Part shown: positions 1 to 35,930 of the stretch, piece after piece | Position numbering within the stretch: position 1 is the first letter of the stretch | Layout of the letters: every line of letters starts with the position of its first letter | NCBI GenBank assembly: GCA_033807695.1 | Contig: CM066301.1 | Coordinates: 4,030,001 to 4,094,000 of the forward strand | Direction of reading: 5' to 3' | DNA: 64,000 nucleotides | Source of the DNA: Daedaleopsis sinensis | Taxonomy: Eukaryota > Basidiomycota > Agaricomycetes > Polyporales > Polyporaceae | Position numbers and translations under genes: made by a program | The notes under the pieces: generated by a model | What the model saw: only the letters and a program-made list of their open reading frames with translations | Told to the model about the DNA's origin: nothing | Database searches by the model: none

Positions 1-1519
1 ACTCATACTCCTCGTACAGCATATCGAACTCAACTCCAAACACATCGTTCAAACCTGGGACGTCCACCGGATCGAACAGCGACCACGACGATTCTTGCTC
101 CACGCGTCTCATGCTGAAAAACGTCAGCACATGAACGTGAAGTGAAACAACATGCGTACAATATATCAGGCACCAGTACGCCAGGGAACATATGCACGGG
201 CCGATTCGGGGGAGCAACCTTCGTGGTCCTGCATGTTACGATAGAGCGTACCTCCGCGTGCCACATAGATATGTAAACGGCACCGGAGCAAGGACGACGG
301 GCCCCGCTGGCCGAGAGATACGCGGCATGACCGTCGTAGAGTCGCAAGAGATGCATCACACCCGGTGACGATGTAACTCCTGCCCTGTACATCACCGCGT
401 CAGATGTACCGAGACGGGATGGGATTGGACGCACCGTCGAGCGGGGACATCCGCGAACGACATCCCGACCCCACCCCCGGACCCCCACAGCAGATCGAGA
501 TCGGACGCGCCTCGTAGAAGATTGGAAGGACTGGAAACATCAGGCTGGAAGATATAACACGACGCGAAGTTAGGCTTGACCGTTCCTCCATTGCAAACAA
601 CGGGTGTCGCGTGCGTGTAGAGGCCACGGGATAGTACATCATACGTCTCCAAGACCCTGTGAATGTCCGAGCGGTGGATCCCAATGGCGACCCGCATATG
701 CACAAACTGAGGACGCTCCGCAGGGGCATCGACCAAGCTGGACCGGAGCAAATAGGACTGGACGAGTGAATTTGCACTAATACTGTGGGGGGGTCAGGTC
801 GAAACCGCACTACGACACGCAGTACGGGATATACGCACTACCCCATCCTATAGTCTCGCTTGTGAATAAGTGCGTTATCCAGCTGTACACCGTGCTGGAC
901 AACTGCCTCCAAGAGATCCGGATGGAGCGACAGGGACGATACTGCACGAACGACGGTCAGATCAGTTCCAGACAGGTACTAGGGATGGCCACCAACTATT
1001 GGAATGAACCCAACGAGAAAATGATTTTGCGACGACCTTGTGAATGTTTGCTACTAACATGCGCCCGGCCAACCGACTATAGTCCGGGTGGCGACCGGCG
1101 AGGCTGGCGATAGAAGACGCGGCGAAATTCTAGACCAACGTCAGACACGCAGAGACGAACTTGTAGCCGAACCGTTCTCACCTGCAGTTCGTACGTCGTG
1201 GTCTGCGGTCTGATGCCGGCGAGTATCGTTTTAAGAATTCTGAGAACACACGTAGTCAGTCCCGCGAGGAGCACACGCACTTGGAGATGGCAACACCCTC
1301 GGCCGTAAGGGGGACGTACAGCCGATAGTCAATATACTTTGGATCGAGATCCCAGGACAACTACCGCCACGGCCGTCAGCAAATTAAAACACGCCATAAC
1401 GGCCCGCCTCACTGACCAGTCGGATGGTGTGCAGTAACTGAAGAGGGTCAATTACACTAGTGCACAGCGAAGGGACCGTTACGGTACTGACTTTGCCAGC
1501 GTAGAAGGGTTGCGCTTCA
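1..1519 (-). CDS. Ribonucleotide reductase large subunit (class I, R1), divergent, 5' part
   Basis: Large subunit of class I ribonucleotide reductase, which makes deoxynucleotides from ribonucleoside diphosphates. Nine exons on the minus strand: about 1519-1492, then 1456-1417, 1360-1281, 1239-1182, 1129-997, 941-842, 782-435, 384-160 and 113-1, running off the left edge. Intron phases close throughout. Recognisable R1 landmarks in order are the ATP-cone region (LDPKYIDYRLYVPLTAEG), HPDYSRLAGRMLVANIHK, LDNALIHKRDY, SYLLR, ERPQFVHMRVAIGIH, THATPVVCNGGT followed by FASC (matching the catalytic cysteine of SSC in R1), LLRLYDGHAAY, and MRRVE...WSLFDP. Spacing between these blocks matches R1 closely, but many normally invariant positions differ (CNGGT for FNAGT). 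The start codon lies in an unidentified first exon upstream of 1519. The C-terminal active-site residues lie outside the window. A small subunit lies at 22.6 kb. Confidence 0.88.
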
Positions 1520-2753
1520 CTGTGAGGTTGTTAGGTCGTATTACGGAACATAGTACTGGTCAGTACAGACCCATCTACAACAAAGGGGCACGTCGGTCAG
1601 TCGCAATACTACCGGACTGGACGGTGCGCGTGCGATAAACGTACCTCGCTTCACGATATCAAACGCGGGGACTGCTACGGTAGCCATCACAGAGTAGGTT
1701 GCGACGATGGAAACAGGACAGTGTGGGGGTGAGGAGGTCGACGTCTTCCTATCGCAGGACCATGTGCATAATATATGGCACGCTCTGGCTGTATCAGTCG
1801 CCTGCTGCTGAATCTACCGTCCTCCTTTTCCTGGTAATCCTGTACGGCTCGCTACGGCAGTGCGCGTGTTGCACCACTCCAGGCCAAGCGGTTCGCGATC
1901 TGAGCACCGTGAACGGACGATCGACGGAATTAGCCCGGCATCGGTACATTACCGGAGTACCGCCATCACAATGCCCGTGCATCAATGCATCACGACTCAT
2001 CGCAGCCCGGGATATCGTGCATAACTGCGAAGCAGATGTACGCTCAGGGTCTCCTGCGGTGAATGGAAGAATGATATACGGTGACGCCGCGGAGCCCGGT
2101 AGCCAGTAGCAGCAGCCATGCGCTTCCACAAAGAACCAGGACCGCCGAGACGATTGTCCGGCCAACTGGTGTTGATGGTTCAGATGTAGTTGTACCCTGT
2201 GAGCTTCAGCGGAAACAATGACGAGATAGCTCGTCGCCGAACATTGAACAGTCATGGTGGCTCCATGCCGTCTTACGTTGCGTGCCACTGAAGCAGATGT
2301 CGCGACCTTGCTGTGTATGATCACCCGTCCCTTGCACGGGTAGTCGAGCTCGGCCGATTGTGCACATGATATCTGTCTTCACATGCATGCACCGACTAGA
2401 AATCGGATCCGGGGTGCCGCGCTCGTCTTGCGCCACAACAAGAGTCGACGTGGTATGAACGAGCTCCACTGCTCCTACCCCGTCTGGCACCACGCACGAG
2501 TCGATTTGTGGGGTAGCCACACGCGTACCCCCGCATCGGATTGTTCTGGTCCTGCGCGATTATAAGACGATGCGCGTGCCCGGCCACCGATTCGCGAGTG
2601 GCGGATGGGATACCGTGGCGAGAATAGTAGCGGCTGAGATAGTGTGCGAGGGAATATATCCTAGGCTTGAAGCTTGACGGATCAGACAGTGACAGGTAGA
2701 ATAGGGACCCGCAACTAGCGTGGAGTTGGAATCGATACGCTTCGGCTGGTTCG
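1520..2753. other. Stretch without an assigned gene; coding-like patch on minus strand
   Basis: No gene could be assigned. The first exon and promoter of the R1 gene should lie at the low end. On the minus strand near 2155-2125 the frame reads FFVEAHGCC, which matches FYVEAHGCC at the N-terminus of the Rep/helicase at 21.8 kb; most codon differences are third-base changes, so this may be part of a real exon or a decayed copy. The surrounding open frame (1794-2324) has no other recognisable content. Confidence 0.3.
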
Positions 2754-3077
2754 GACTGCCACAACCGCGACAGACAGCGGGTAAGTGGAAGCGTTCCCCG
2801 ATAATGCATGCACAAGTCCGTGTACCTCTCGTTCGCAGGGCGACGGCATGGTACGAGATCAGACTGCCACTATCGCGACAGCCAACGAGTAACCGGAAAT
2901 GTTCCCTGGTGATGCATGCACAGGTCTGTGTAACTCTCGTTAGCTGGGCGACGGCGCGGTATCACACCGGGCTGCCACCGTCGCGACAGGCAGCGAGTAC
3001 CCGGAAATGCTCCCTGATACTGCACGCACAAGTCCGTGTAGCTCTGGTTCGCTGGGTGACGGCGTGGTATCAGAACA
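2754..3077. repeat. Minisatellite, about three copies of a 108-bp unit
   Basis: The block starting gactgccacaaccgcgacag near 2754 recurs at 2862 and, with substitutions, at 2970, each time 108 bases apart. The whole unit is conserved, including the later parts gatgcatgcaca and gggcgacggc. Because 108 is a multiple of three, open frames run through on both strands; these are by-products of the repeat and I do not call them genes. The repeat lies just upstream of the gene at 3.1-4.7 kb. Confidence 0.85.
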
Positions 3078-3129
3078 TACCGAGCCGCGACCACATATAA
3101 CGAGGCCGGACTTACTGTTATATTTACAG

Positions 3130-4696
3130 TTCGGCTTCATTCTCTCCGCCCTCTATCCCATCAACCCGGGCATGGAATCCGCCGTTCGCAAGACCGTCGA
3201 GCTCTGGAAAGGCCGAACGCTACATGAAGGCGACATCCCGTTCGAGAAGGCTGCTATATCGGCCGGGAAAGTGGCACAGTTGTTCCAGGTTAACAGAGTC
3301 GGCGACGTTGAATGGGTGGTGAGCACACTCACACCTGACGCACAGCTGCGAGCTGACCTACAGCGCAGCTCTGCAAGCCCGGGGAAATAACTCCCGCTAC
3401 GTTCAGTTACGCCGCCGTTGTGTCGATCGCCGATCCCATGGAAACAGGAAATCTCGTCATCGACTCGGAAGTTCGACCGGACGGGATACCTGCAGGACGG
3501 GTGTCAGTGTTCACTGAATTTCCATTTAGGATGCTACTCAGACACCGATCACAGCGAAAGATGGGCTAACTACAAGTGTTCTTACACATACGTGTTTGAT
3601 ACGTCCAGGGACCACGGGCTATACACGCTGCAAGGGGTGAGTCTACGTTCCGGTGGACGAACATGGCACTTACTAGCGGCAGATGATGGACAGGTATATG
3701 GAGACACTCCCGGAATTCGAGACCACGGACCGTCTTCCTCGTCGCCTATGGCAGTCGGGCAGCCATGGCCAGGGACGAGACCAGTTCTGGATGCGCGTAC
3801 CCATGTTCATCCGTGTCCGTGAGGGCGAACAGAAGCCGGCTCCACCAGATACCGTGCACGACTGGGTGAAGATCGCGGACACCAGATCGATGTGGTATCG
3901 CGCTAACCCATCCCCCCCGCGAGTTCACGAACTTGTACATGGGGAACTGAAGCCGGTCGCCGAATGTCTACCTCCGAAACTGATGCGCGGGGACGTGGTC
4001 GTGATATCGTTCACGTTGCTATACGTCGTTGGCAGGAAAGACTGGTACCCGACATACTTCCTGACGCGGCTGGTTCGAGTGGCGAAGGGGACAAGTTTCA
4101 TCAAGTCCCAGGAAGGAGAAAATGCGAGAAGCGCGGAGGACGAACCGTCGCAGTCATATTCGGGTTCCCGGATGCACAGCGGCGTCGGTAAGCGAGCAGT
4201 ATATGTGTTAGTGTTCAACGTCGCGAGTTGAATTCACGCAGATGTCACGGGTGGACACGTGGAGTCTGAGATAGAGGGCAGTCAGCGGAAGCGCCCGCGC
4301 GAAGAGGAGAGTGTTCGGCGTGTAGAGGACGGGGGCGATGAGCCTCTAATAGAATGGCCTGCTTCGGACGAGGAACGACGCACCTCTCGGCCCCGTCTGG
4401 ACCCTACAGCTGCGGGTCCGTCGCATCATCCATTCCACGAGCGTGGTGACGACAAAGGGCGACCGTACCCCCTCCCGCCCATGGAACCAGCGACCCGCGG
4501 GAGTTCAGACGGAACACCGTCTTCGGTATCGTCGGTCAACACGACCTCCGAAGGCTCGTCCGACACCTGGAGCGTGTCTACTGGATTCGAGGCAGGTCCC
4601 AAGGAGCCTTTGACCGGGAGCGACGAGCAAGAGGATGTGAAAGGGAAGAAGACCGCAGATGGGACGGCACGGCGCCGAACGAGGGGGAGTCGCTAG
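3130..4696 (+). CDS. Fungal protein of unknown function, multi-exon, disordered charged tail
   Basis: A five-exon model closes in phase: 3130-3318, 3369-3502, 3555-3636, 3683-4187 and 4242-4696, with introns of 46 to 54 bases. The first exon starts right after an acceptor (tttacag), so an upstream start exon may be missing; an internal ATG at 3172 is the alternative start. The protein reads as a globular beta-rich part (blocks WANYKCSYTYVFDT, LPEFETTDRLPRRLW, FWMRVPMFIRVREGE, GDVVVISFTLLYVVG) followed by about 150 residues of serine-, glutamate- and arginine-rich, probably disordered sequence with a KRPREEE basic-acidic patch. The second intron is the weakest: reading through gives 22 open codons and then a frameshift. 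No function is recognised. The gene at 28 kb has a similar ending (GDIVLLECNV) and may be related. Confidence 0.6.
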
Positions 4697-6911
4697 CGGG
4701 ACGATGTGGAGGTCATGTCGAACGACGGGGCGAAGATTGGCCGTCACGGAAGATTCGTTGGCTGCCTGTATAGGACAATAGATTCAGCGTTGATGACCGA
4801 CCGAAACAATACATATTTGTCGCGGAATACGGATGCATGAGCTCGTCTCCAGCGAGATGATACAATGTCGTGGCGGACATGCAAAAGTGCGTCGACACGA
4901 CACGTGGACGTTCCGGTTGCGTTCTCGATATGGCAACGGCGAATCGGCCCGCAATCGGGACGGGACGCTATTGAGCATGACCACATATACCATGTAAGAA
5001 GAGTCAGGCACTAATGTAGTGCACCGTAATGACTCACGTTGCGGTGGGGCAAACTCGCGCCGCCACGCCGACATGTAATTCGTCGAGACTATCCAAGACG
5101 GCGCGGCCGACAGAGGTAGATGGTAGGTCAGACAACATGAGCGTATACTGTAGTATGTGGTGACTCACTATTAGCACGCTATCCCGAACTCACACCGATC
5201 TGCGAGGACATAACTCGTAGATAGTTGAACGCAGTATGGCATCTCCTATCCAACAGTTCTTACCATGATAATTGCCGGAGTCCAGCAACGCACCAGGCCT
5301 GCGTCGGTACCCGCAGAACAAACTCATGATACGACCAATAACTTTGTATTGGTAAAGAAGTGTCGTAGGCCAGCTGAGCACCACGACCGAATCTCTCAAG
5401 TGCTGTACCACCTACATCTTGTGCGCTTTGTTCGTGCGGAAGGTTTACCTCAGTTCAAGACACAGCCTGCACAGATAGCACTCACCACGGTACTCGCATA
5501 CGTACGCATGCGCGAATGCCGGTTAGCGCTCATAGAACCGAGTGTGCGCCTCGAGGTACCGCCGGAGCTCGATCGTGCGTGCGACGTTCAGATTCATACC
5601 CGGTACGCTGTGGATGAACGTTAGTTGGAGAAGACGAGCACCGAGAGAAGTGTACGCATGCACGAGCCCAATCCACCCTCGCAGCATTGGGGGACAGCGA
5701 ATGCACCAGCTTATGGCATCGTCCCATGACGTGAACCTGATGGCGTGCTGTCGAAAGGACCGGGTCGGAGGCTCGCACGGACTCCAGTCTATTGACGATG
5801 TATGCGTCGATGCACGCATACGTCAATGTGGATACAGGGACACTCACGATAAGACACCCGAGCAAATAGGTCCTGGACACGGCTGTGGAATAACGCGGAA
5901 GCGAAGATGCGGGAGCGTGTGAGCGAAGCCCGCGCGGTAGTTCGATAAAAAGTCGGCAGTTGGTCCTGGACGCGCGTGTCAGATCGAGGCAATACACCGT
6001 GACGGCAGATAACATGTTCACCTTCATCAACCCAACAGTCGAAGGTAGATTCACCAAGGGGGACTGAAAGGGTCTGAATGGCGTAGCGGTAGAACAGGAG
6101 TCCACCGTGATCCATCCGATGGACAGGAGCGTCCGCGTCCAGCTGCTACATTGTTATCATCTTGCTCCACGGGCTCCGCCCAAACCAGTGGCATTCGTAA
6201 GTTCTGAGAAGCTTCCGCTGATCCTAACGGCGGCTGATCAACGCCTGCGAACTCAGGTTTGTGAGCGGTAGCGAATTCGTGAAGGCAAGTTCCAACATAC
6301 AGTACCGGACGGCACCAGGCTACACGGAGTCGTATTCGGGACGCGTCGCCAGGGTATAGGGAATGGATGTGATCGATGGGCAGTGGATTGGCCTAAAAGG
6401 AGGGCGTCCGCGCGACCCGTGGACGGTACGGATGACATATAAACGATGGCACCGCCGCCGGCCGCGCGACGTCGACTCCAGCACCGAGCTCACGACGGTT
6501 CTGCGTGAAGGAAGATAAGAAGGTGCGGAGGTAACGGCACGTCTCCGTCTTCATCGCCGTGCCAGAGGATTCGCGAATGACACACACGAGTCGTAGGCTC
6601 CGACATTAATGTTCAGCGTCTTCCCGCTCGATTGCAAGGGATGGCGACAGGAACGACGCAACACAACTTGCGGCCTACTTACGTCCTTATGCCTCTGCAC
6701 CACCGAACCCGTCAGAGTACACGAAACGGACCCGATGTCTGGGACGGGAAGCCAAATTAATAATACAGTAGATACGACCTACACGTCGACGCGCGACGGA
6801 TCCGTATCTGTCTATAGCCCAGGAGCCATAATAAGCAGATCCGTTCGAGAACAAGTGATAATAAATGTGCGCACCTTCGACAACGCATGACCACGCTGTT
6901 CGATACTGCTG
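4697..6911. other. 2.2 kb with no recognisable gene
   Basis: Several open frames over 100 codons occur on both strands (for example 5265-5624 plus and 5530-6105 minus). None shows a known motif or convincing splice-linked continuity. After finding that neighbouring genes are split into short exons, I cannot exclude an undetected intron-rich gene here, but I see no positive evidence for one. Confidence 0.4.
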
Positions 6912-7842
6912 TCAACTCACGCAGACCGAGAGCGCCCAAACACGTACCTGTACAGGAAAGCAAGCTAATATCCTCCAACCATCGCCAGTATGGGCCACGG
7001 GAAGAGTTTCCGGACCGTGCTCCGCTTGATATCCGAAGCCAACGACGATGGCACCCATATGGCCAAATCCCCCTGCGTGTTCGCGACGTGACAAGTCGCT
7101 CAGGTCACATTGATGTAGCCGAAAGTCTCTATGAGCATATTTTGCGACTGCACTAACATCCCGGCTAGACAAAGGGTCACCCTTCACGCGGCCTCTGCGG
7201 GAAAACAAGTCACGAGGATACGAGCAGCCCGCTCCGCATGGCGCGATGAAATTCTTCACCAGAGTACACCAGAACCCTTGCAGCGGCGTAAGGGGACTGC
7301 TATTGGGACTCCGGATGGTGTCGACGAACCGTGCGGAAGGAGTTTGAAATCTCTGCAGTTCCTTCACGGATGAGACACCTGGTTGATCCGAGGACCGGGA
7401 CGTAGGGTGTATGAGGTCGCGCCTGGTGAACTGAAGGCGGGACACTACGGCTTCGACGAATTGGTCGAACATGTGATCGGGAACGTAGATATCAAGGTCT
7501 CCAGGTTCCCATGGTTCGGAGGGAAGAAAGTACTTCAGTGCGACCGAACCTGAGATTACGGCTCCGTGAACCCGCAGGACATCGTTGAACGATCGGAGGT
7601 CGGAAACAAAGGGTCGGATGGATAGTTCGTATCGGATACGCAACTCGGCACGCACTGCGGCGTATAGCACGGTGCAAGTTGCGCGCCATGACAAAAGAAG
7701 GATGAAGTCGCTGTTCTCGATGACCACGAAAAGGACGTCTGGTGGCACCCTAGGCGTTACACTTGGTCAACGGTCGGGGCACGGCAAGCATTTGTGCATA
7801 CCTCAAGTTCACATCAGAAAGCGACCCAAATACATTCGCCAT
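6912..7842 (-). CDS. F-box-like / nucleotidyltransferase-like family protein, copy 1
   Basis: Start ATG at 7842 in a 41-base exon (7842-7802), a 52-base intron, then a long exon from 7749. The N-terminus has an F-box-like pattern (VPPDVLFVVIE, LLLSWRATC). Around residues 80-104 it carries SGSVALKYFLP followed by GDLDIYVP, the GS...DxD arrangement of the nucleotidyltransferase fold. Further on, FNY-type and GCSYPR blocks align with LFNYV and FGCAYP of the paralogues at 12.3 and 24.5 kb. The last part (after about residue 210) does not align, so the true 3' exons may differ from the continuous frame, which stops at 6912. Activity is unknown: known members of this type in Agaricomycetes are uncharacterised. 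This copy is the only one of the three that keeps the acidic motif. Confidence 0.6.
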
Positions 7843-8768: not shown

Positions 8769-10174
8769 ATGTCAGCGTATCTAACAAGTCACGGAACACG
8801 TCGCCAGAACGTACTGAACTTCCTACCGACTGGATCACGCTTCGCGAGCATGCCTATCCATCGTGAGTGAATATGTCCGTGTTGAACGTGTCGGTCAGTA
8901 ATGTTCCAGGCCCGCCTCCAGACGAGAACCTGATATACATCGCGGCCAGCCGCACGTCGACGGTGTACAGCACGGATCCGACACAGGGCGGCACGGTGCT
9001 TGTCGTAAAGGAGTATAACGAACTCGGCCGCGACGGCGGGGCTTGTGATGTCGAGAAATGGGCCTACCAGTTGACGGAGGAAGGCGATGGACCTGGAAAG
9101 AGGTGAACTCTCAACAGGGGTTTCGATACGGGACGGGAGTAACGCTCACCCGACACAAGCGCATTCCTCGCTGTTTTTTCCACAGGTGACTTATGTCGAC
9201 CTGACCGACTACTACTTCCGAAGAAAGACGGCACTCTCGCGGACCTGCTCGACGTGATACGGCCTGGCACGTTATACCTGCCAGACGTGCTCTCCATATC
9301 GGAGCAAATGCTAGCCGGAATAGAATGTGAGTTCGACGGCTCGCGACGACCGTGTCTAGCAACTAACGATCAGCAGATTTACATCACCTCTTGATCGCGC
9401 ACACCGACATCAAGCCCGAAAACATCGTGATGGACAGTCTGGAGACGACGCTCCTCGCCGCCAGTCAATCGCATCCCGAGACGGCGAAGGCGAGCACATT
9501 CGGCCAGTGAACGGACATGTTCTCTCGCTGACGACGGTACAGCTGAAATGCACGAAGATTTTCATCATCGATCTGGGCGATGTGGCCCCGACAGACACTG
9601 GATGCCTTGGATTGGCTGGGACGTCCCGGTACAGAGCTCCTGAAGTAACCCTTGGTGAGTTATTAATCAGATAAGACAGTGCGCACACTAACGGGTTATC
9701 ATACCAAAGGTTTGCCATGGGACGGAGCGGTGGACTGGTTCGCAGCGGGATGTGTCATGTTCGAGGCCGCCACGGGACGATCGCTGTTCCCTCGTACCAC
9801 CTCTCGGATAGCTCGCGTCGCAGCGATTGTGGCCGTACTCGGTCCGATCCCTAACTGGATGGGAAGACGGTTGGGGCGATGGTATTCGATACCATCGCCA
9901 GAAGCTGGTGTCGGTTCATTCAGAGTACGGTGTCCAAGACGTAATGTTCGCGAGGCAGTGGAGTGTGAGCATATATCCAGACTCCAGCGGCTGGAGGTAA
10001 GTTCGTTCGAGTTACAATGTCGCGATGATGATAACGATAGCATGACTCACGGAGTGGTAGGATGTACTGGAACAAGGATTCGTGCACTCGGTCTGCAGCC
10101 AGTTACTGCATATAAACCCTCGCCACCGCGCAAGCGCGGTACCTGCGATCATTCGCGATGGAAAGTTCCTTTGA
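8769..10174 (+). CDS. Serine/threonine protein kinase, SRPK/CLK-like, altered catalytic motifs
   Basis: Seven exons close in phase to a 362-residue protein: 8769-8862, 8910-9102, 9160-9326, 9377-9463, 9508-9654, 9710-9996 and 10061-10174. Kinase landmarks in order: the beta-3 lysine (VLVVKEY), a DGTLADLLD hinge region, LHHLLIAHTDIKPENIVMD for the catalytic loop, IIDLGD for the magnesium loop, SRYRAPEV for the APE motif, DWFAAGCVMFEAATG, VLGPIPNWM, and LLHINPRHRASA near the end. The LGPIP and YRAPE features recall the SRPK/CLK group. Two positions are unusual: HTD in place of HRD and DLG in place of DFG, though the catalytic and metal-binding aspartates and the lysine are present. The glycine loop is not recognisable (AASRTSTVYS). 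Substrates are unknown. It lies between two F-box/nucleotidyltransferase-like genes in the accessory island. Confidence 0.85.
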
Positions 10175-12326
10175 CGTGGCTGGTATATCGAACTGTCCTG
10201 CGCGTCGTTAATATTTTGCGCACGGACCAGCTGGACTCACCGCGTCCGGATTGCAACTCTAGGTGGCATCGTTACCCAGGCATATCCACGTCGCGAGACA
10301 CGACCGCGTATGCTTGTGCCCGGTCTCGATCTGCCCATGACGGATAGTTGACGGTTGTAGCATGAGTCGGATACCAATATGCATATCGTGATCTTGTGTC
10401 GTCGGACTGCCGGAACGTATGGAATGTGAAGGCGCCGTCCGAAACATTATTGCTGAACTTACGCCCTTGTGATCACTGTATTGTACACGGTAGGAAAACG
10501 AGGGCATGAAAAGGACCAAGTTCACCAGCACGAAACCGCGGTAGTGACTAGTCCGACCTGCAGGTAAAAGAACCGGTATATTTCGGGAGCACGATGCCGA
10601 CCACACCCGATGCCACGGACCGGGACGGACGAATCCGGATCGAAAACCCGCCAAATCCGGCGTGGACTCGAACTGTATCGAGCGCTTGACCGACGACATG
10701 CTGACAACGGCCATGTGAACGCACATGGTTTTCTCTCAGTCTACAAGTGCGACTATAATATAGTACATGCAGGAGTGAATTCCACATATCGTCACACCCC
10801 GGACGCTCTGAACGCGGTCTCGAGTGCGCGCAACATCTCCCTCTGCAGCTCCTGGGAGAAGAACACCCAAGTATTCCTCGGATGTCCTAACCCCCCTTCA
10901 AACCGACTAACGAAATGGACAGATACGGTAGGGACGATTCCACGGCCTCCACCGCGATCCGTCAACTGAATCGCCACGCGGAACGCCAACTACAAGAAGG
11001 TGAGTCTCGCGACATATCAGCAAGTGCAGTTTACATACGGGTTCCCCTCTGACAAGCAAGACCATATACTGGTCAAGCCTCGTCACTCCATCGTCATCGT
11101 AGGCCGAGTCTTCATGGTGCGTCGGGTGGGTTTCGCCAGCGACGACCTGCAGGTTTCCCAACTGCGGTGTGCCGCGCTGAACGCGAGGACTCATCCGCCT
11201 ACGACAGGAATCAACGTCTATCGGGACATAGACACATCGGCTCACGTACCATGGACCAATCGACGTAACAGGCCTCACAGAGCCAACTGGAATCGACATC
11301 ACGAATAGGTGCAAGCAACTGCCCATGAGTCAGCCACGAAGTACCGAGTATTTAAACGTGGTGCAGGCGCCGCACACAAAGAGGACATAGTGAGATGCAC
11401 CAGTCAGGGTCATCTCACGAGAAGAAGTTAACGACCGGACCCTTAATGGCTGCGCAAGGGTGTGTACCGTACACGACTCTCGCAAGCCATAGCTTGTACG
11501 TGTCAAGATATCTGCAAGCATGTAAAACGCTACGGGTACGTACATACCCGCTACGCGGCGGAGGCATTGTCTCACATCTGCGTGCAGCGGTCAGAACACC
11601 CATACACATCGGTCTCGGATGCCCTGAACAACGTCCAAGCCGATGTGCCTTTCACTCTTACCAGTCGTGTCAATGTGTTGCGACGTTGACGTAACGTGCG
11701 TGTCCGTCTAGTGCTATATCGCATTTCCAAGCCACTGCATGCCTCATATCAACCGCCTCCGCGTGCAGAGTGCATGATCGACAGACAATTACCCCCCTTA
11801 CGAAGGTGACTACCCATTCGAGCACGGAAATGGGAAATGCGGTTCGGATCGCGGCGGAATGCACACGTACACTCAGGGCCTCCACGCATGCACGTTCCGG
11901 GTATGCGCTACCACGTGCGGGGCATGCAGTCTCATGTAGATTACTGACCATGCGTACGCGACCTCACACGGAAGCAACAACTGCGCATGTACCCGTGCTG
12001 TCGCCGGCAACGGCAATCGCTCCCGTCCCCCGCCCCTCGTCGGAACACGGTCTGGTACCTTCACGTTCTGTATCGTACAATATAAGTGAAACTGACATTG
12101 CCACTCAGGACCCCAATAATTCGTACAGAAAGTCCGCTGCAACAGCTATCCGCACTTGTCCAGTCTACAATCGACACCCACTGTTTTCTCAGGTGCGCAG
12201 ACGGGACGCTAGCAATGAAGCTGCCGGTCTGATCTTTGTATACAGACCACAGCCATGTCTCGTCTGACGATGTCCCCGCTACTTGTGAGTGCAATGCGCA
12301 CATCTACCGAGTGAGTCGCAACATAC
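10175..12326. other. 2.1 kb without an assigned gene
   Basis: Several open frames on both strands, including a minus-strand stretch around 10990-10790 (TWVFFSQELQREMLRALETA) and its plus-strand complement starting MDRYGRDDSTASTAIRQLN at 10916. One of these is probably an exon, since the first is followed by a plausible 43-base intron and the second by a GTGAGT donor, but they are antisense to each other and I could not decide between them. Confidence 0.35.
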
Positions 12327-13547
12327 ATGCGCATCCGCCACACAGTATGCTCACTACACACAAGGTTGCCTCTCGAATTGCAGGATATCGTGTTCTCGTA
12401 CCTGACGCTGGTAGATGTCCTATCGTGGAGAAACACTGGCCGGAGAAGTTACGTTTCAGCAACGCTTTTCCTACGGCGGCGCCTCCAAGTTCTGCTCGCA
12501 CCCTTCGTCCCCGACACCACGTCTTTTCTCGGCGAGATTTTTCGCCAGCGGGCTCTGATAAGCGGCATGCTCGCGCTAGCATTCGTGATCGTCGATCGGG
12601 ACGTGAAATTCTCCATCGTCGACGTATACGCTCCCGACCTACTGTATCCCGCACTGGTAACCGCGCTTCACGCTATGTTTTATGAACGCCTGAAGAGCGT
12701 TACAGTCGTGTCCACCCTCTACGCATCATCCGTCCGAGCGGTTGTAGAGACGACTACATTCCGGTTTCACAGCGGTCGCGCGATTTCCGTGCATCGTTCG
12801 TCGACCTGGAGTCCGCTACTCGCGATATGCAGATCCCCTTCCTCGCTGTTGTTCAACTACGTCTCCCGAACATCATTCGGTTGTGCTTATCCCACCCTTA
12901 CCCTGCGCCACCGGGGCCTACTAGCGGATACCGCACTCTACCATGCACTGTCTCAAGACCTATACTCCATGAACGCTCTCGCAGAACAAGGCTTCAACGT
13001 CTCGTGGTCTCCTTCACGGTTCGCGAAAGAAGACCAGATCGCACGGCGCCTGCGATTGTTGAACCCCACGGTCTCCGTGGACCTGACGGTCGACGTGATC
13101 GCGTCGGAGCTTCGTTCGGACAGCTTGGACCGCCCAGTTACGCATACTAGGCGATTCCGTCCCATATGGGGTGCCCCACCCTTCCACGCGCAGCACACTT
13201 GGTCGTTCCTTCAAGGCACGCAGCAGTGCTTTAGCAGTCGGAACATGTGTCCACAACAGGTTCGGTTTTTTGGGGATGCATCATCGCTCGTCGACTTCCT
13301 GGATCCGATGTCAACCGATCGGCAAGAGCTCGAAGAGAAGTGCATGCCACCGTATGGAGCCGTCGTCGCGTGGAAGCTGTGCAGTTCCTACCGATGCGGC
13401 GGTGTAATCAAGTGCGGCCCCATCGAGCCCAATGTCATGCTACTCGACAACGGCTTTGTCCACCTTCCGGCCTTGAGCGGGAAGAACCGTTTCGACAGGA
13501 GTAACGGGCGGCACCACCCCCCTATATACCTGTACCACGCGTATTAA
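12327..13547 (+). CDS. F-box-like / pseudo-nucleotidyltransferase family protein, copy 2
   Basis: A single open frame of 406 codons starting MRIRHTVCSLHTR. An F-box-like segment follows (LPLELQDIVFSYL, VLSWRNTGRRS), then LLAPFVPD, and ISGMLALAFVI...VDVYAPDLLYPALVTAL. That last part aligns without gaps to SGSVALKYFL...LDIYVPDHMFDQFVEAV in copy 1, but the GS pair has become GM and the first acidic residue is gone, so it should not be a working nucleotidyltransferase. Shared downstream blocks with copy 3 at 24.5 kb are SPLLAICRSPSSLLFNYV, SFGCAYPTLTL, VSWSPSRFAKED, RYFGD-type (RFFGDASSLVDFLD), and PYGAVVAWKL. It is intronless over this span and lies opposite in direction to copy 3. Confidence 0.72.
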   Translation: MRIRHTVCSLHTRLPLELQDIVFSYLTLVDVLSWRNTGRRSYVSATLFLRRRLQVLLAPFVPDTTSFLGEIFRQRALISGMLALAFVIVDRDVKFSIVDVYAPDLLYPALVTALHAMFYERLKSVTVVSTLYASSVRAVVETTTFRFHSGRAISVHRSSTWSPLLAICRSPSSLLFNYVSRTSFGCAYPTLTLRHRGLLADTALYHALSQDLYSMNALAEQGFNVSWSPSRFAKEDQIARRLRLLNPTVSVDLTVDVIASELRSDSLDRPVTHTRRFRPIWGAPPFHAQHTWSFLQGTQQCFSSRNMCPQQVRFFGDASSLVDFLDPMSTDRQELEEKCMPPYGAVVAWKLCSSYRCGGVIKCGPIEPNVMLLDNGFVHLPALSGKNRFDRSNGRHHPPIYLYHAY

Positions 13548-21847: not shown

Positions 21848-22640
21848 AAGTCAGCACACTCACCACAGAGCGAATCTCCACCGGACATTGTATGATCGCG
21901 GCCAGAGAGCATATCAACAATTGCTATGCGACACACCGTCAGTTAGATGCACAGATATAGTAAACCGCTTCAACTCACATGTAATCTCATCGGCCTCCAC
22001 CGGGAGATGGGAAGATCGGTCCGTGGCGAGGCCACTGGGGTCAGCTACAACGAACTCGTCAGGTCTATCACTAGTAATCACATGACGTGACATACAAACG
22101 ACCAGATCTGTCCCACCGGCAGACGACGAGAAAACGACGTCTGCAGAGAAATGAGCAATATCAGAATAGGTTGAAGACTCCATGAGTGGGTAACGCACCT
22201 GCAGCGCAACGAGTCATATATGCACCACACTCGCCGGCACCACGAAGCCGCCCATACGCGATCTGACCCGAGCTCCCGGAGATAGCGATCGGGAGTTGAC
22301 GCACGGAATCTCACTTTTCCAGCCACAGGAATGCAACGTCGAACATTGTCAGTGCTGACTACCCGGTGAACCGGTTATCCAACGAACCTGAACATTCTTC
22401 GTGCGTGCATGCATAGGTCGCCTGAAGCGCAGCAATGTCGAATGGTTCTCGACGTCCGCGCCCATCTTTGTCTCGCCACACCTCATACTACAGCCCACCG
22501 GAGAATTTGCTTCGTATATCGTCCGTGATCCGGTGCACATCAGCGACATACGTCCTCAGCTTGACGCTCCACGCTGCATAAGCAATCATCAGCTGCCTAT
22601 ACACATAAGACCGCCGCACCAAGACCCAGAAACGCAACCC
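21848..22640. other. Divergent intergenic region between Rep/helicase and RNR small subunit
   Basis: About 0.8 kb between two divergent starts. It must contain the promoters of both genes. The plus-strand frame is open from 22401 but the part before 22641 does not look like ribonucleotide reductase. No Helitron terminal hairpin was recognised. Confidence 0.4.
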
Positions 22641-23832
22641 ATGGACCAACCGTCACCGAACATGTCTATGAACCACGACGATGCCGATGTCATCCCACTT
22701 CTTCCATACCGGTCCCCGTATGTGCTGTTCCCGATAGAGTATCCGGCGGTACGTCCAACGGCATATCCGATGCTCCGTGCTCACTGCGCGCAGATATGGG
22801 ACGCATACAAACTTGCACAAGCGTCGTTCTGGAACGCGGATGAAGTGGATCTGGCCGAAGATACAGTGCAGTGGCGCACCCTGCTCAGCGAAGAGGAACG
22901 AGAATTTCTCTCGGTTATACTGGGCTTCTTTGCGGCCGCCGATGGGATCGTCTCCGAAAACCTCGCTCTGCGGTTCTGCAATGAGATCCAGATGCCCGAA
23001 GCAAAGTGTTTCTACGCCATGCAACAGGCAACGTGAGTGATGTCCGGTCCGACGTTATAGATGTTGACATACCACATCAGCGAGAACGTCCACGCGGAAG
23101 TCTACAGTCGTTTGATCCAGGAACTCATCGATGACGCCACGGTGCAGGCCAAACTCTTCCACGCCATCGAACTCCTCCCTGCCGTGAAAGCAAAAGCGGA
23201 ATGGTGCCTTCACTGGACAAACTCTACGAACCTCAGCTTCTCCACCAGGCTGGTGGCTTTCGCGATAGTCGAAGGAATCTTCTTTTCCTCCTCGTTCGCT
23301 GCCGTTTTCTGGCTCAGGGACCGGAACCTCATGCCTGGATTAACATTCGCGAATGAGCTCATCGCCCGAGACGAAGGGCAGCACAGCGACTTCGCTTGCC
23401 TCCTATACAATCATCTTCCCGAGAGGCTCACAGAATCGGAGGTCCACGACATGATCAAGGATGCCGTGCGGCTCGAGCACGACTTCTTTTCCAGTAAGAC
23501 ATGCATTATAGCCGATGCAACGATACGTACTCACCGGTTCTCATAGGCGCACTGCGTGGTCCTCTGACCGGATTGAATGTCGATATGATGCTCGACTATG
23601 TCAAGTTCATCGCGGACTACCTCCTCGCTCAGCTGGGGTATTCCGCCATATACAACAAGAACAACCCAGTCAGTACGCTGCCGCAAACGATACAACCAGT
23701 TACTCACGACGAGCGCAGTTTCCTTACATAGACAGGACGGTTCTTGACGTGAAGACGAACTTCTTCGAGCGGTCCGTTAGCGAGTACAGTGTCGGGAACG
23801 TGGCGCAGCGACATCCGGTCCACAAACAGTGA
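22641..23832 (+). CDS. Ribonucleotide reductase small subunit (class I, R2), four exons
   Basis: Radical-generating small subunit of class I ribonucleotide reductase. Exons 22641-23032, 23081-23493, 23547-23672 and 23732-23832 close in phase to 343 residues; introns are 48, 53 and 59 bases. Metal and radical sites are all visible: the first aspartate in EVDLAED, E and H plus the radical tyrosine in ENVHAEVY, the next glutamate in [10 protein letters not shown], and E and H in [30 protein letters not shown] and KTNFFER are also typical. I chose the ATG at 22641 ([11 protein letters not shown]); the frame is open further upstream from 22401 but that part does not resemble R2. The usual acidic C-terminal tail that docks on R1 (ending DxDF in eukaryotes) is absent: the protein ends AQRHPVHKQ, unless another exon exists. 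Pairs logically with the R1 gene at the left edge. Confidence 0.9.
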
Positions 23833-24524: not shown

Positions 24525-25724
24525 CTACCCACGATGATACAGGTAACTACACGGCAACTGTTCGTCCACCATACGGTACTTACCAACCATTCCCGGAACG
24601 GCGGGGAGCCATACTACGCCACCTCGAACCATTGCCGCCTCTGCGTCAAGCACCCAACACACGTCGCGGCGGGTACACAGATACGAAGAGCCCAAGCGCC
24701 ATGCAACCACCGTTCCGAACGGAGCTACGTCGCCTTCTTCGAGTGTAGCCCGATCCGAAGACAGGCAATCGATGATGTCAACGAACGACCCGGCGTCACC
24801 AAAGTACCGCAACTCCCGAGGGCACATCCCAGCGCCAGCGTAACAGTCACGCTCAAGCCGGAAAGCCCGCCCACGCCTATCCCAACCAACGGGAACCGTT
24901 TCCCCGCGTCGACGGCGAAACTCTGCGGCAACCACAGCGTCCACGAGAGTACCAGACGGTCCAGCGGCGAATGCGATGCTTGCGAATTGATACAACGCGG
25001 CTGTGACAATGCGCGGAGGCGGCGTGAACCGGACAAATCCACGAGTGGCCATGATATCCTCCTTGGCGAACCTCCCAGGCGACCACGACACGTCCACACC
25101 GTTGGTGGCGAGACATTGCATAACCGTGATGTCGAAGGGGAGAGAGAACCGGAGGGATTCATCCGCGACCAGACTACGACGAGCAAGAGTTAACGCTGGA
25201 TACGCACACCCAAACGACCACGGTGTAACGTAGTTGAATAGTGCGGTGGACGGGGAAGCGCAGATCGGCCATAAGGGAGACCAATTCCTCGACTGGTAAA
25301 GGACGACCCGACGCCCATCCTCGAGAACGAACAGAGTGCAGTCGGACACGCCTCGCCTCCTCCTCGCGGCGGCATCCATGTACACCGGGACTATCTTGAT
25401 CTTCCCTCTCAGATGCTCGACGATCGCCACGCGCAAGTCGTAGTACAACAGATCCGACGCGAACAACTCCAGTATCTTGAACGGAAACGGACCATCTCGG
25501 AGAAGGAAGGCGACTGCGAAGAGGCCTCCCAATAGAGCTTTGTAGCGGCCAACACAGACCAGGAAATCCGCCGGGTCCACGACGTACGGGGCGAGCAGCA
25601 TCCTCATCCGGCGTCGCAGAGACTGTACCGCGAGACGATACGCAGCACGGCACGTACCGCGCCACGCCGTGAAGTCTCTGATATCGGCAGTCCCGAAAGA
25701 CAACTCGACCACTTCCGACGGCAT
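24525..25724 (-). CDS. F-box-like / pseudo-nucleotidyltransferase family protein, copy 3
   Basis: A single open frame of 399 codons, clearly paralogous to copy 2: the F-box-like start MPSEVVELSFGTADIRDF and TAWRGTCRAAYRL align without gaps to LPLELQDIVFSYLTLVDV and the rest, followed by RMLLAPYVVD, LLGGLFAVAFLL...LELFASDLLYYDLRVAI, NWSPLWPICASPSTALFNYV, SFGCAYPALTLARRSLVAD, VSWSPGRFAKED, RYFGDAGSFVDIID and PFGTVVAWRLGSSY. The nucleotidyltransferase-type acidic motif is lost (LELFASD where copy 1 has LDIYVPD). The first methionine aligns with the LP that opens the F-box in copy 2, so a short 5' exon may be missing; a small minus-strand gene ends just upstream at 25746. Function unknown. Confidence 0.7.
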   Translation of the reverse strand: MPSEVVELSFGTADIRDFTAWRGTCRAAYRLAVQSLRRRMRMLLAPYVVDPADFLVCVGRYKALLGGLFAVAFLLRDGPFPFKILELFASDLLYYDLRVAIVEHLRGKIKIVPVYMDAAARRRRGVSDCTLFVLEDGRRVVLYQSRNWSPLWPICASPSTALFNYVTPWSFGCAYPALTLARRSLVADESLRFSLPFDITVMQCLATNGVDVSWSPGRFAKEDIMATRGFVRFTPPPRIVTAALYQFASIAFAAGPSGTLVDAVVAAEFRRRRGETVPVGWDRRGRAFRLERDCYAGAGMCPRELRYFGDAGSFVDIIDCLSSDRATLEEGDVAPFGTVVAWRLGSSYLCTRRDVCWVLDAEAAMVRGGVVWLPAVPGMVGKYRMVDEQLPCSYLYHRG

Positions 25725-25745
25725 ACTGGATCGAAAGGCATGCTG

Positions 25746-28684: not shown

Positions 28685-29384
28685 GGAGGAGATATTGAGC
28701 TAGCGAAACCAGCAGTATGTCCTCACCTTCATATATACGCACTTGCCGCGTGCTAGAGCGCGCACCATCAATATCCGTGACTGCACTTCCACCTCCATCC
28801 ACCAATGCCGTTCACGAACGTATCGGCTCACCACCATACTGCATCAGTAGAGCGATTCCACTCCCCTTCACGACTCCAAACCGGTCCGTACTCGTTTGGG
28901 ACATGTCTTCCGCCAGAGGAGCACTCATTGATTCAGACACCATCTCGTAACAGGCGGACGAAGGCCTTCGATCTAGTCGCGCCACATCGTGCCGTCGAGA
29001 ATATTTGCTCCGCAAACCGCGTACCGAATTTTTCATTAGCAGACTCACGCACTTAAACCGGGAGCGCACGCCGAGCGGCCGTAAATCCCTGAGCACCTTC
29101 ACAGAACCCTCGACGACGGAAGCTTCGCCGCCCATCTTCCTGTCTAGAACTACTATATTCGCAATCTATTCCTGGCCTGCCGATTACACTGACCGTTCAT
29201 CGCAACCCCATTCGGAACTACTTGTCAAACCTAATCACGTTCTTCCACCAGCCGATAGTTATACTTCCATACATCCTCTGCATTATCGACTCCGCAGCTC
29301 CAGAACCTCGCAAGGCCAGAAACGGGTGCTCAGATCGCGCCACTAATCCAGCAGAAATCGATACCACTTACCACACCAACCACG

Positions 29385-30453
29385 TCGCACCTCGGACCAT
29401 CCACCTCGTGCGTCGGCATCGATGCCTGCATGGCCTCTGGCCCCGTCAGGGTCCATCGCTACGCGCCCGACGAAATACTCCACATCGAGAAGTACCACAC
29501 AGTCGGTTCCATCACTTTCCCGCTCCCACCGACGTCCACCGTCGCAGAACGGGGCACGGTGCCTGCCCGGGCCATACCCGCCACTCCCATGTTCCATCCG
29601 CTCACTGTCGTGTTCGACATGCCTCCTGATCTCGAGCTCGACCAGCTGTAGAACCGCAGAGACCGCGCCAGCACATAAACGCACGCAACACCCACGGCGC
29701 GGTTCAGTGAGCACAAAACAGCCTCCTGCGGAAGCCACGCCTCACGCCATTGTCCTACACACCACCATGCTCATACCACTCATGCTCCCTCCCCCGACTC
29801 TCATCTACCCTACGTCCACTACAACCGCGACTTGTCCACCTGCCCCAGCACCGCGTCCGCCGCTCCACCGAGCGGTCCCTCCACTGGACGTGTTCATCGT
29901 CGGCGAACGAGACGTCCACGGATCAGCTCCACATGGCAGCAACGCTGGCGATGGAATATTGGCGTGCACTGCCATTATACGACCCGATACGCCCTTGCGG
30001 GTTGGGATGACCATACGACTTGTCCCCGTGCGACATAGCCGAGCCACATCCGCGTCGACTCGATCGTCCCACTCCAGCTACAAAGCGTACCGTCCCCTCA
30101 TCGGCGGCGTAATCGCGTCCATCCTGTCCAACGAACGCCGCACGATCACGTTCGTTGTACAGAACCAGCTCGTGATACCCTCCCGGTTTGCGCTCGCTCA
30201 CTTATCCATATCCTTCGATCACGGCACCACCGTCCGTCTCGGTCTCTTCTCTCGCCTGTGGCGCACACTGCGCTCTCGATCCTTGCCTGATTCCAGGGTC
30301 GTGCCCATCGATCATACCCGGTACCCATCCATCGACTTCACCGACCTCGACAACAAATCGAATCCGAAGAACCTGGACGAGGACGACTCCTTCGACAGTA
30401 TGGCAGGCCCGTGTCGCGTCTCCCCTACCTCTACCGACCCCGGACCGTACTAA
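29385..30453 (+). CDS. Unknown fungal gene whose 3' end is cut by a hAT-type element
   Basis: Two protein-like stretches in different frames imply at least one intron: about 29385-29651 (MASGPVRVHRYAPDEILHIE, SITFPLPPTST, FHPLTVVFDMPPDLEL) and about 29885-30450 (LDVFIVGERDVHG, GILACTAIIRPDTPL, TITFVVQNQLVIPSRFALAH, acidic NLDEDDSFDS end). The stop TAA at 30451-30453 is the first three bases of the inserted element, so the gene was shortened by the insertion. After the element the same frame continues for 21 codons from 31305 to a TAG at 31368-31370, consistent with the original end. The gene is of the beta-rich unknown type seen elsewhere in the island, but I cannot assign a family. Strand choice is moderately secure; a long minus-strand frame overlaps. 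Confidence 0.5.
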
Positions 30454-31296
30454 GGCTGAACAATAGGTCAGGTCACGCGCAGGTAGATCCGGATCCGACC
30501 CGGCGCTTGACCTGTAGGTCCGGATCTTCCGGATCCAGATCAAGCGCCGGGTCGGATCATTCCGGATCTAGGTCGGACCTTTGTGATTTCGTCCCGGATC
30601 CAGGTCGGATCTTCGCAATTTTACAGATCTGTAAACAGCGATCTGCAGCCCGCAGAGGGTGTACTTCCGGTGCGAATCTCTCGACATTTTGAACAATGTT
30701 ACCTTACTAGAGGTCCTATAGGTCTACAAAGTATCATTCAAATCGGTTAAGTATTCGATATTCTACAAATGTTACGATGTATCCCCGTTCTGCACCCTTG
30801 TGCGGGACATACTAATCAAAGATATGCATCTAGCACTACGTTTCATGCACAAATAAATGCTCAAAATATTTTCAAGTGCTTGGTTTACTGCCGGCAGCCA
30901 ACCGTCCAAAGACGAGAGCTTCGTTCCCTTAATTGCTCTCAGGATCTGTGATTTACTGACTAATGGGCTATAACCGCCTTCGCTTGGGGAGCATGGAATG
31001 ATTCACTTGTATCTCGCTCAGTTGTGGACGGATTCTCACGAACCTAGGTTCATTGTGTGCGTTGTGGGCATCGGTACCTACGTACAAATAACGAGAGGTT
31101 CGTCTCAATAAACGCCTCCGGTATATCATTTCGCGGATCTCTGCGCAGGTCGACCTGTAGGTACCGGATCCGGATCGTCCGGATCCGGATCAAGCGCCGG
31201 ATCGGATCTTTCCGGGTCTAGGTAGGACCCCGAGGGACCCTCTGACCTGTAGGTCCGGGTCCGGATAACCTACGGATCGATCCGTGTTCAGCCTTA
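30451..31296. mobile_element. Non-autonomous hAT-type element (MITE-like), 846 bp, perfect ends
   Basis: The element starts TAAGGCTGAACA and ends TGTTCAGCCTTA, a perfect 12-base terminal inverted repeat. It is flanked by an exact 8-base direct repeat, gaccgtac, at 30443-30450 and 31297-31304. An 8-bp target duplication with ends of this kind is the mark of hAT superfamily elements. No transposase frame is present, so movement would need an enzyme from elsewhere. Both subterminal regions carry related GATCCGG-rich repeats (gacctgtaggtccgg recurs near 30509, 31148 and 31238). The unmutated ends and target duplication suggest recent insertion. Confidence 0.92.
30492..30558. repeat. Perfect 19-bp inverted repeat inside the hAT-type element
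   Basis: GATCCGACCCGGCGCTTGA at 30492-30510 is followed, after 29 bases, by its exact reverse complement at 30540-30558. The loop contains further ccggatc motifs. A related imperfect arrangement lies near the right end (about 31150-31215). Such subterminal repeats may serve as transposase-binding sites, which is inference. Confidence 0.85.
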
Positions 31297-31304
31297 GACC
31301 GTAC

Positions 31305-34013: not shown

Positions 34014-34735
34014 GACCGCGGCTCGTTCGCTGTTCCGGACTCACGACTCAGGGCACGCGATGTCCCGAATTCCTGTCGACACCCTACTCGCTTTCATATC
34101 CGAGTCGCCCACGCCTGCCACACTTCTGCCCTTACCACCTGGATGACATACTACGACATTCGCACTTCATATCCCCGAAAACAGGGTCGCTCGTCGCCTA
34201 CCGCGGCAAGTACAGGCTACATACTCGACAACTACTACTAACAGACTCGAACGGCACAGACTACGTGCCAACCTATATCGACAAACGCACGCAGGTCCTG
34301 ATACGGCGAGAAATGTTCCGGCATGTCTCGCCGGCCGAACGTCAAGGTCGTGTGTACGCCTTCTGCCTCCGCCTACCACGTGTGTCATTCACGTCAGTCA
34401 CGCCAATGTTCTCACTCACCAGCAGGTACAGGACCTCGCGGGCGGGGGCGGTTCGTCGCGGTAAAGGTCGGTCGAACTAACAATGTCCCGAGGCGACTAC
34501 GAGAATGGCGGAGGCGCTGTACGACAGCTCGACCTGCCTTATTGGGGTCACTGTCGACAAGCAAAGCGCGGCTGCTCGAGCAACTCGTTCATTTGGAGCT
34601 GCACGATATCGCTGTCAATGCGCCATATATACATCCCCTTTTCCCCGCGGTACCGGGAAATCTTCGGTTTGGGCCCCAACACGCACGCACCGCTTGTCTC
34701 GACTGTGAGCAAAGTCCTCCATTCGTCGCATTGCA
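34014..34735 (+). CDS. GIY-YIG (T5orf172 / DUF1766-type) domain protein, 5' end incomplete
   Basis: An exon from about 34014 (after acatacag) to 34379 carries a cysteine-rich start (CSGLTTQGTRC, HFCPYHLDDIL), the linker VPTYIDKRTQVLIRREMF, and GRVYAFCLRLP, the GIY half. A 43-base intron (34380-34422) joins in phase to FVAVKVGRTNNVPRRLREWR, the YIG half with its arginine, then RLLEQLVHLELHDIAVNAPY and CLDC. This is the arrangement of fungal T5orf172/GIY-YIG proteins, in which a CxGxTxxGxRC zinc-type motif precedes the nuclease-like fold. The stop is after ALH at 34733-34735; the usual final CxDCxxxHxEIF is cut short, so a last exon may be missing. Known GIY-YIG domains cut DNA, but activity of this fungal group is not established. 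An upstream start exon is not identified. Confidence 0.72.
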
Positions 34736-35930
34736 TTGACATGTAGCGATTTCGGTAGGTGGATCCACACATCAAGAGATTTTCTGGCTTCGCTCTCCCT
34801 CTGCCAACCCTCGGGACGTATGGAGATACATCGTGCGGCCTGTCGTTGCACGATACGCCGATTTCCTCGAAGCACACCGGTAACGAGCTACTACCGAGAT
34901 ATCTACAATCCACAAGTATACAAGAAACCTCGCACCCTTTTTGCCATTTGAGCGTTCATGCACAACTATAGTACAACACGTTGAATTCAGTGAATATGTA
35001 TACTTACAGAGCTGCCGCTACAACTCCAACAAACACCAAGGGACGTTGCACCTTGAAGTCGGTACTCCCCACGTATACGTCGAAAGAGTACGCAGGCAGT
35101 ATTCGAGTCTGAACGCTATACCGTCAACAACCGTTCAACACTAGTACATGATATGATAATGGCACTGCTCGCCACATCGCCGATTCAATTCACACCTCCT
35201 CCTCATCCTCGGCGTGGATTCAGCAACCTGAGAGCCAACCCCATGTAGTAGTGACCGTGACCTCATCAGAGTCGATCAGCGAAGCGTCAACACACCCTCG
35301 CGCCCTCATGCCTCGGACCGCACAGGAAGCTACCCCAACCACGCCCTCCCGAAACCCCCTCCACCGCCAGCGCGTCCGAGATGGGTATCCGGGGTCGGGG
35401 TGCCAAAAGTCACGTGAAGTGGACTTGACTTTCCTGATCCCAAGACCTGTACACTGATCGTGTCCAGGAATAGCATCACATATCATCCCGTCCTTCCATG
35501 CATCTTTGACACCGGTGTGTCGGGTCTCCGCCGCGCAGCATCAACTCGTGACTCGTAATCAACCTCTAACTTCCCTCCTCCCTTCATCTGCGGTGACAGG
35601 ACGTATGAGGGTCGATCCGAAGGTAAAGATAGCTGTGGAGAAACCGGAGTAACCAGTGCATTGTCGATGACACTTGCAGGGAATATTAACAGCATGTATG
35701 TGTGCCGGTGCCGTTCAGCCACCCGTGAGCAAGACAGGCCCGAATATATCCTTGCTTATTGTATTGAATTGGTAGTTTTAGTTGCGCCCCACAGCGGAGA
35801 GAGGTGTGTGATCAGGTTGTCGCAACGGCGCAACGTCAAAGAATTATGGAACACTACGCTACACTACTCTCGGCTTGTCCGGCGTTTTGCTCGTCCGGCG
35901 GAAAAGTGTTGCGTCGCGCATCCTTGACAG
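34736..35930. other. 1.2 kb without a gene, edge of the accessory island
   Basis: No protein-like frame with support on either strand. This stretch separates the island from the tandem duplication and the gene-dense region. Confidence 0.5.

Follow-up and report, generated by a model that had tools for sequence, protein, structure and literature searches.

A probable family of giant Helitron-type transposons carrying ribonucleotide reductase genes in Daedaleopsis sinensis

The window analysed here, a stretch of 64,000 nucleotides (C2:4030001-4094000), belongs to the genome of the polypore Daedaleopsis sinensis, which comprises 51.6 Mb in 24 contigs and within which all comparisons between loci were made. 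The first 35 kb had been singled out, in a sequence-only reading, as an accessory island in which both subunits of ribonucleotide reductase (RNR; R1 large, R2 small) stand together with a Rep/Pif1 protein, a protein kinase and a GIY-YIG protein, and Pfam matches confirmed that all five are present. The island is a single mobile unit and probably (we put the probability at about 0.8) belongs to a family of giant Helitron-type transposons, 42.9-50.5 kb long in the seven measured, that are autonomous and encode their own supply of deoxynucleoside triphosphates (dNTPs). The elements have conserved ends, have transposed as whole units, possess an intact protein that joins Rep and helicase (RepHel), and carry R1 and R2 as constant parts held under purifying selection.

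Borders and termini

The unit extends from C2:4016448 to C2:4065471, i.e., over 49,024 bp, beginning 13,553 bases to the left of the window and ending at window base 35,471, and the limits of 1-35000 first given to it had to be abandoned. The portion inside the window occupies 1-35471 (no strand assigned); both limits of the unit, C2:4016448 to the left and window base 35471 to the right, are the points where ~99.7% identity to a second copy on contig C1 ends. This C1 copy, 48,121 bp in length, is ~99.7% identical over some 48 kb (99.6-100% in the aligned pieces) and is surrounded by unrelated flanks; 59 differences (42 transitions, 31 at CpG) separate the two over the 30,450 aligned bases of window positions 1-30450. 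The gap in length between the two copies comes from an 846-bp insert in the window copy and a 210-bp insert, resembling a miniature inverted-repeat transposable element (MITE), in the C1 copy. Full-length large elements with both ends number seven, and measure 49,024, 48,121, 44,442, 42,864, 46,407, 46,934 and 50,489 bp. To the right of the element, a frame at window position 39220 matches the beta subunit of the signal recognition particle receptor (E 5.4e-10), which marks ordinary host DNA.

The right end, which is the 5′ end in the sense of Rep (35384-35471, minus strand, reading inward ATTCCTGGACACGATC), was found by its last ~60-90 bases at 35 places in the genome. In all 22 that were read (20 fetched, the window copy and the C1 copy), the first base is the same and the border is ATTCCTGGACACG, with differing flanks and a preceding base that is T in 19 and A in three. 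The left end was found at 22 places through its first 31-54 bases (120 in the window/C1 pair), every one matching from base 1; the 13 left ends read share an identical start base, with ATACGTAGGGCCCTCCGGGC in 12 and a single change in the remaining one. A 13-base motif, CCTGGACACGATC, begins at nucleotide 4 of the right end (35456-35468, minus strand) and recurs in inverted form at nucleotide 24 of the left end of the window copy, outside the window, followed in both cases by a CGTGACTTT block; its core, CCTGGACACG, is present in all ends read. The motif thus lies at unequal distances from the two ends, and such an asymmetric terminal inverted repeat is the hallmark of Helitron2 in the passages of PMC5148889 on which we draw. 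All 13 left ends also contain the palindrome GCCCGGAGGGC, a candidate for one of the hairpins expected at both termini of a Helitron2. The canonical ends of Helitron1 (5′-TC and 3′-CTRR) were not found, the 3′ end being CCCTACGTAT; the 5′ end, counted after AT, may start with TC. Both ends carry AT and the flanks differ, which gives W-A-T for the insertion site (the first base being T in 19 of 22); this pattern is compatible with insertion between A and T free of target-site duplication, as expected of the Helitron superfamily, and equally with a 2-bp duplication. Five short copies of 361-373 bp have both ends and are non-autonomous relatives.

Some observations on the borders and their inserts may be added. 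A left border at C2:4016571 was rejected, as the 210-bp insert in the C1 copy had masked 120 more shared bases, and the true, conserved end is at C2:4016448. That MITE-like insert (TGTCGG..CCGACA, C1:4872707-4872916) is located at a TA, and the window copy has ATAA between TAs, which is excision-footprint-like. The 846-bp insert (30451-31296, no strand assigned), found in the window copy and not in the C1 copy, has inverted ends TAAGGCTGAACA and is bordered on either side by the 8-base repeat GACCGTAC, an 8-bp duplication being a hAT-like trait. On C7 (C7:4081267-4145766), six left-end matches, one of which was read, are spaced at ~10.7-11.1 kb or double that distance; this is perhaps a tandem array such as ribosomal DNA in which an insertion has been homogenised, or a tandem array of rolling-circle origin.

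Distribution of the gene set in the genome

A census was taken with PF02867 for R1, PF00268 for R2 and Helitron_like_N for Rep, in which exon matches of one gene were merged and all counts are lower bounds. It gave 27 R1 loci, 29 R2 loci and 72 Helitron_like_N matches (one below the cut-off), and at 26 loci, spread over eleven contigs, Rep, R2 and R1 were found together, with the midpoints of the Rep and R2 matches 3.2-3.6 kb apart in every case and R1 at a distance of 16-53 kb from R2. Since the three genes recur together at 26 loci, their combination is not due to chance. The island was not to be regarded as one unit if its genes turned out to be scattered and individually syntenic, and inside this genome they are not scattered, with 26 of the 27 R1 loci and 26 of the 29 R2 loci situated in such units. 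Outside the elements there are one R1 (C9:2927269), two adjacent R2 (C6:1327491 and C6:1329456) and one extra R2 (C3:1008427), of which the R1 on C9 and the two R2 on C6 are taken as host genes. This C6 pair is divergently oriented, within ~3 kb, and 88% identical in exon 2.

The Rep/Pif1 gene of the window copy (15929-21850, minus strand) is one intact open frame of 1973 amino acids with its catalytic motifs kept. It has the domains Helitron_like_N, DUF6570 and PIF1 (PF14214, 1.4e-32; PF05970, 1e-22; PF20209, 8e-23), and the union of an HUH-type Rep with an SF1/Pif1 helicase that characterizes the Helitron superfamily is evident in PF14214 and PF05970 and in the motifs HCH, YITDYITK and GGTGKS. 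The Rep frame is open over at least 1,965 amino acids at 21 of the 26 loci, and HCH and YITDYITK are intact in all five Rep loci checked besides the window. Relatives of Rep number 273 at E <=0.001; among the 120 listed, most are unnamed metagenomic proteins, accompanied by proteins from Trametes, Plicaturopsis, Psilocybe, Gymnopilus and Coprinellus.

The layout was also followed in a divergent copy on C2 (compared over 4199.6-4239.1 kb), where R1, gene A, FN3, the kinase, FN1, Rep and R2 (the lesser genes are described below) are collinear at ~40-68% amino acid identity, BB-like genes are found at 32-39%, and the terminus is as in the window copy. The left border of this second family was tracked with 60-base probes to C2:4191772 and not reached, and genome searches with the sequences L040, from this family, and L041 were incomplete, missing the query’s own locus; to the left of its R1, numerous copies of a ~70-bp repeat were seen (L040:4365-8366). 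Judged by FN1, the elements nearest to the window copy are those at C10:1387k, C3:3295k, C1:864k, C8:913k and C10:3044k, and since BB and the left end pick the same five, genes and ends have been inherited together. In a relative of the window element on C11 (C11:3179600/3199136), R1 is interrupted by other DNA, ~19.5 kb in length, and the matches on its two sides overlap by 7 bases of the query, as would result from a 7-bp target duplication.

Segmental duplication, or a gene-capture hotspot around an ordinary small Helitron, is the alternative that we find hardest to credit. The genome does have 46 further Rep matches without R2 within 5 kb, which could provide such small Helitrons, but the alternative is at odds with the recurrence of one gene set across eleven contigs (26 loci), with exact common ends and with unrelated flanks, and a hotspot, which was among the origins proposed at the outset, conflicts with the repeated collinear layout.

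Ribonucleotide reductase of the elements

R1 enters the window with its N-terminal exons (1-1129, minus strand; PF02867/PF00317), and its C-terminal exons lie to the left (in the adjoining sequence, L028), where the motifs SSNLCTEI..AVCTLAS and MPTAST are found. SSNLCTEI (TSNLCTEI in one), AVCTLAS and MPTAST are present in all eight element loci examined. R2 (22641-23832, plus strand; PF00268) is divergently oriented beside Rep and was joined manually from four exons (introns at 23033-23080, 23494-23546 and 23669-23718), with probably one further in-frame intron within exon 1; its exon 2 matches 18 solved RNR small-subunit sequences. The residues expected of a class I RNR are in place, i.e., metal ligands and radical tyrosine in R2, and thiyl and redox cysteines in R1. 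A profile of the ATP-cone gave no candidates in the whole genome, the host R1 gene being equally unmatched.

Between element families, the ratio of nonsynonymous to synonymous divergence (dN/dS) in R2 exon 2 is ~0.05-0.15 at a dS of 1.4-2.4 (a near-identical pair gave 0.3 on almost no changes), and for R1 it is 0.07-0.08 in three pairs at a dS of 1.9-2.3. These ratios indicate that R1 and R2 of the elements are under purifying selection. Relatives of R2 outside this genome (120 listed of 8,000 candidates scored) include Polyporales paralogs in Daedaleopsis nitida, Polyporus arcularius, Lentinus, Cerioporus and Sparassis, as well as 13 Earliella scabrosa clusters. A tree of 39 sequences, which took six of the 26 element R2 (the window’s element being represented by its C1 twin), united these six with 23 polypore paralogs in one clade with a support of 100, apart from host R2, which grouped with Rickenella and Parasitella (support 84, and 99 in a smaller tree); the deeper placement of the element R2 had a support of 67-71. 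Because of this fully supported clade apart from host R2, the element R2 is seen as an old separate lineage and not as a recent capture from the host.

The suggestion of a cargo-carrying Helitron is upheld in one half only. Whole-unit duplication, unrelated flanks, ends with an inverted motif, short relatives and the 26 loci speak for a Helitron-related element, and the term “cargo” is misleading because RNR is constant and under purifying selection. It is unlikely that RNR is kept for the benefit of the host (e.g., to provide more dNTPs in times of stress or to withstand an RNR inhibitor) and not for replication of the element. RNR is metabolically useful, and the cargo of giant fungal transposons such as the Starships often serves the host; however, one R1 (C9:2927269) and two R2 (C6) lie outside the elements, and the presence of R1 and R2 in 26 of 26 loci, with R2 staying by Rep, is unlike variable cargo.

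Further genes and the weighing of the readings

The elements also carry an orphan family, FN, which is nearly confined to them and has three members in the window: FN1 (12315-13547, plus strand, a 410-amino acid frame), FN2 (24525-25745, minus strand, a 406-amino acid frame) and FN3 (6912-7766, minus strand). When the genome was queried with FN1, 102 of 135 candidates were scored and 140 matches obtained, corresponding to 101 loci after merging. Of these, 95 fall inside intervals that reach up to 14 kb from the 26 combined loci and together cover 2.8% of the genome; each element has 2-5 members, and relatives of FN1 are near all 26. Of the other six, three are just beyond such intervals and three elsewhere. 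A word-based search found no relatives of FN1 among 5.8 billion proteins, and alignment profiles of FN and BB gave only matches of E 1.1-1.4 to solved structures. FN3, which has no Pfam match, shows to the eye an F-box-like start and a nucleotidyltransferase-like GS..DLDIYV, and the family may combine an F-box with a nucleotidyltransferase fold, partly degenerate, behind it, a reading of motifs judged by eye for which Pfam and PDB gave no support.

The protein kinase gene, a partial exon set at about 8873-10035 (plus strand), matched PF00069 (E 1.9e-14) once its exons had been joined by eye and has HTDIKPEN, DLG and APE; its last exons are kept in the divergent C2 copy. The GIY-YIG (T5orf172/MUG113) protein (34302-34739, plus strand; PF10544, 6.6e-9; PF13455, 3.8e-8) lacked a conserved counterpart in the single divergent copy used for comparison, unlike Rep, both RNR subunits, the kinase and the orphan genes, and may therefore be accessory. 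Gene A (3094-4084, plus strand) is spliced and of unassigned function, and its exons show 39-61% amino acid identity to those at C2:4207740-4208750 in the divergent copy. A 108-bp tandem repeat is present in three copies (2752-3072) between R1 and this gene. BB (29347-30453, domain at 29899-30309, plus strand) represents a family of small, strand-rich-looking proteins with two more members left of the window; it is near 24 of the 26 loci, but is not element-specific, because 23 of its 54 matches are elsewhere. A Copia-type gag fragment (PF14223, E 4e-12) in the left part of the element (L028:957-1490) is the remnant of a nested retroelement.

The remaining origin put forward at first, an endogenised virus remnant, was not borne out. 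The absence of capsid, packaging ATPase and B-family polymerase (PolB) that was then noted agrees with a scan of 36 distinct translated element pieces, in which neither these nor an integrase, the genes by which Nucleocytoviricota or Polinton/Maverick elements would be recognised, had a Pfam match, although short exons and novel folds could escape it. RNR, kinase and GIY-YIG do resemble the accessory genes of large DNA viruses, and a size of 43-50 kb with about ten or more genes in divergent families would suit an endogenised or integrating large DNA virus that used a Helitron-like Rep for replication and integration, with the genomic copies as proviruses. Against these stand the unmatched viral genes, the ends and the 365-bp copies, which are of transposon type, and a pattern-based scan of IMG/VR, where none of five pattern matches was confirmed as a Rep relative. 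The phage records listed align with the helicase part only, at 24-25%. FN and BB have no known fold and leave room for a novel structural protein. A viral origin is improbable on this balance.

Several points weigh against a giant Helitron-type family. A right-end match was present within 60 kb at only 17 of the 26 loci (the nearest match, not checked singly) and a left-end match at seven, and the remaining loci may have other or diverged ends. The 3′ palindrome region, in a folding of the left end alone, folds no better than shuffled sequence (z -0.79). Rep frames are short (688-1,295 amino acids) at five of the 26 loci, the Rep of the C1 twin carries one stop (that of the window none), and one Rep without R2 (C9:1522292), which may be nested, is located within a 53-kb locus. 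The Rep-R2 block is inverted relative to R1 in seven of the 26 (R1 lies beyond Rep in 19 and beyond R2 in seven). The dS values of 1.4-2.4 are near saturation, pairs with a synonymous proportion >=0.72 having been excluded, and the R1 ratios come from three element pairs, two of which have one partner in common and a twin copy.

In the mechanism envisaged for a Helitron-type element, RepHel would nick the conserved 5′ end and drive rolling-circle copying, with the Pif1-like helicase displacing one strand and a circular intermediate being formed, as drawn from parts of the Helitron literature (PMC6431247, PMC5148889) and general knowledge. The 3′ end would be marked by the conserved palindrome GCCCGGAGGGC together with the inverted motif in its asymmetric position. 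The element’s own class I RNR would raise the dNTP supply, and so let a 50-kb element copy when the supply of the host is limiting; large DNA viruses use RNR genes in this way. The kinase and the F-box/nucleotidyltransferase-like orphan family might adjust the host. It is conceivable, though on the whole doubtful, that the elements are self-sufficient replicons of the nucleus, a new grade intermediate between transposons and large DNA viruses, in which an extrachromosomal circle would be amplified outside the host S phase by its own RNR and host-modifying kinase and F-box-like proteins, and would move between polypore species.

Parts of these features are known from other systems. FoHeli, a Helitron2 of Fusarium oxysporum, shares RepHel, an asymmetric repeat (the 3′ repeat some 20-40 bp inside), short non-autonomous copies and flips in the orientation of open reading frames, but, in the parts of PMC5148889 used here, reaches ~11 kb at most against 43-50 kb; the present element has R1, R2, kinase and orphan families as constant parts, and its W-A-T insertion differs from the sites listed there. 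The gene-capturing Helitrons of Pleurotus ostreatus (PMC4289320, in extract) are alike in their Agaricomycete host, rolling-circle type and extra genes. According to the relevant portion of PMC6431247, fungal Helitrons measure 6-7 to 14 kb and those of maize up to 39 kb, and they carry gene fragments, full-length host genes being exceptionally rare, whereas here full-length genes are conserved across long divergence. Excerpts from two further papers describe a conserved non-transposase enzyme in fungal Helitrons, which is a TET/JBP dioxygenase against silencing and not RNR (PMC12730594), and a replication accessory gene in plant Helitrons, which provides a single-strand-binding protein and no dNTP synthesis (PMC4683698). 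The Starships of Pezizomycotina are likewise giant fungal mobile elements with extra genes, but occur in another class of fungi and have a tyrosine recombinase captain; no tyrosine recombinase turned up in the Pfam scans of the element, in which no dedicated search for one was included.

The word “reductase” is absent from the main text of PMC4289320 and of PMC12730594, as is “ribonucleotide” from PMC6431247. Among the matches listed from open-licence PubMed Central, none described RNR in a Helitron or in any other eukaryotic transposon. To our knowledge, no eukaryotic transposon with a complete ribonucleotide reductase of its own has been known, and genes for dNTP synthesis otherwise mark large DNA viruses and phages. 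With R1, R2, a kinase and an orphan family as fixed components, such a Helitron exceeds the limits of size and gene content given for Helitrons in the portion of PMC6431247 cited above. It makes testable whether host dNTP pools limit transposons, and the numerous divergent paralogs of R2 in the annotation of Polyporales genomes would be accounted for, provided that Rep adjoins them there.

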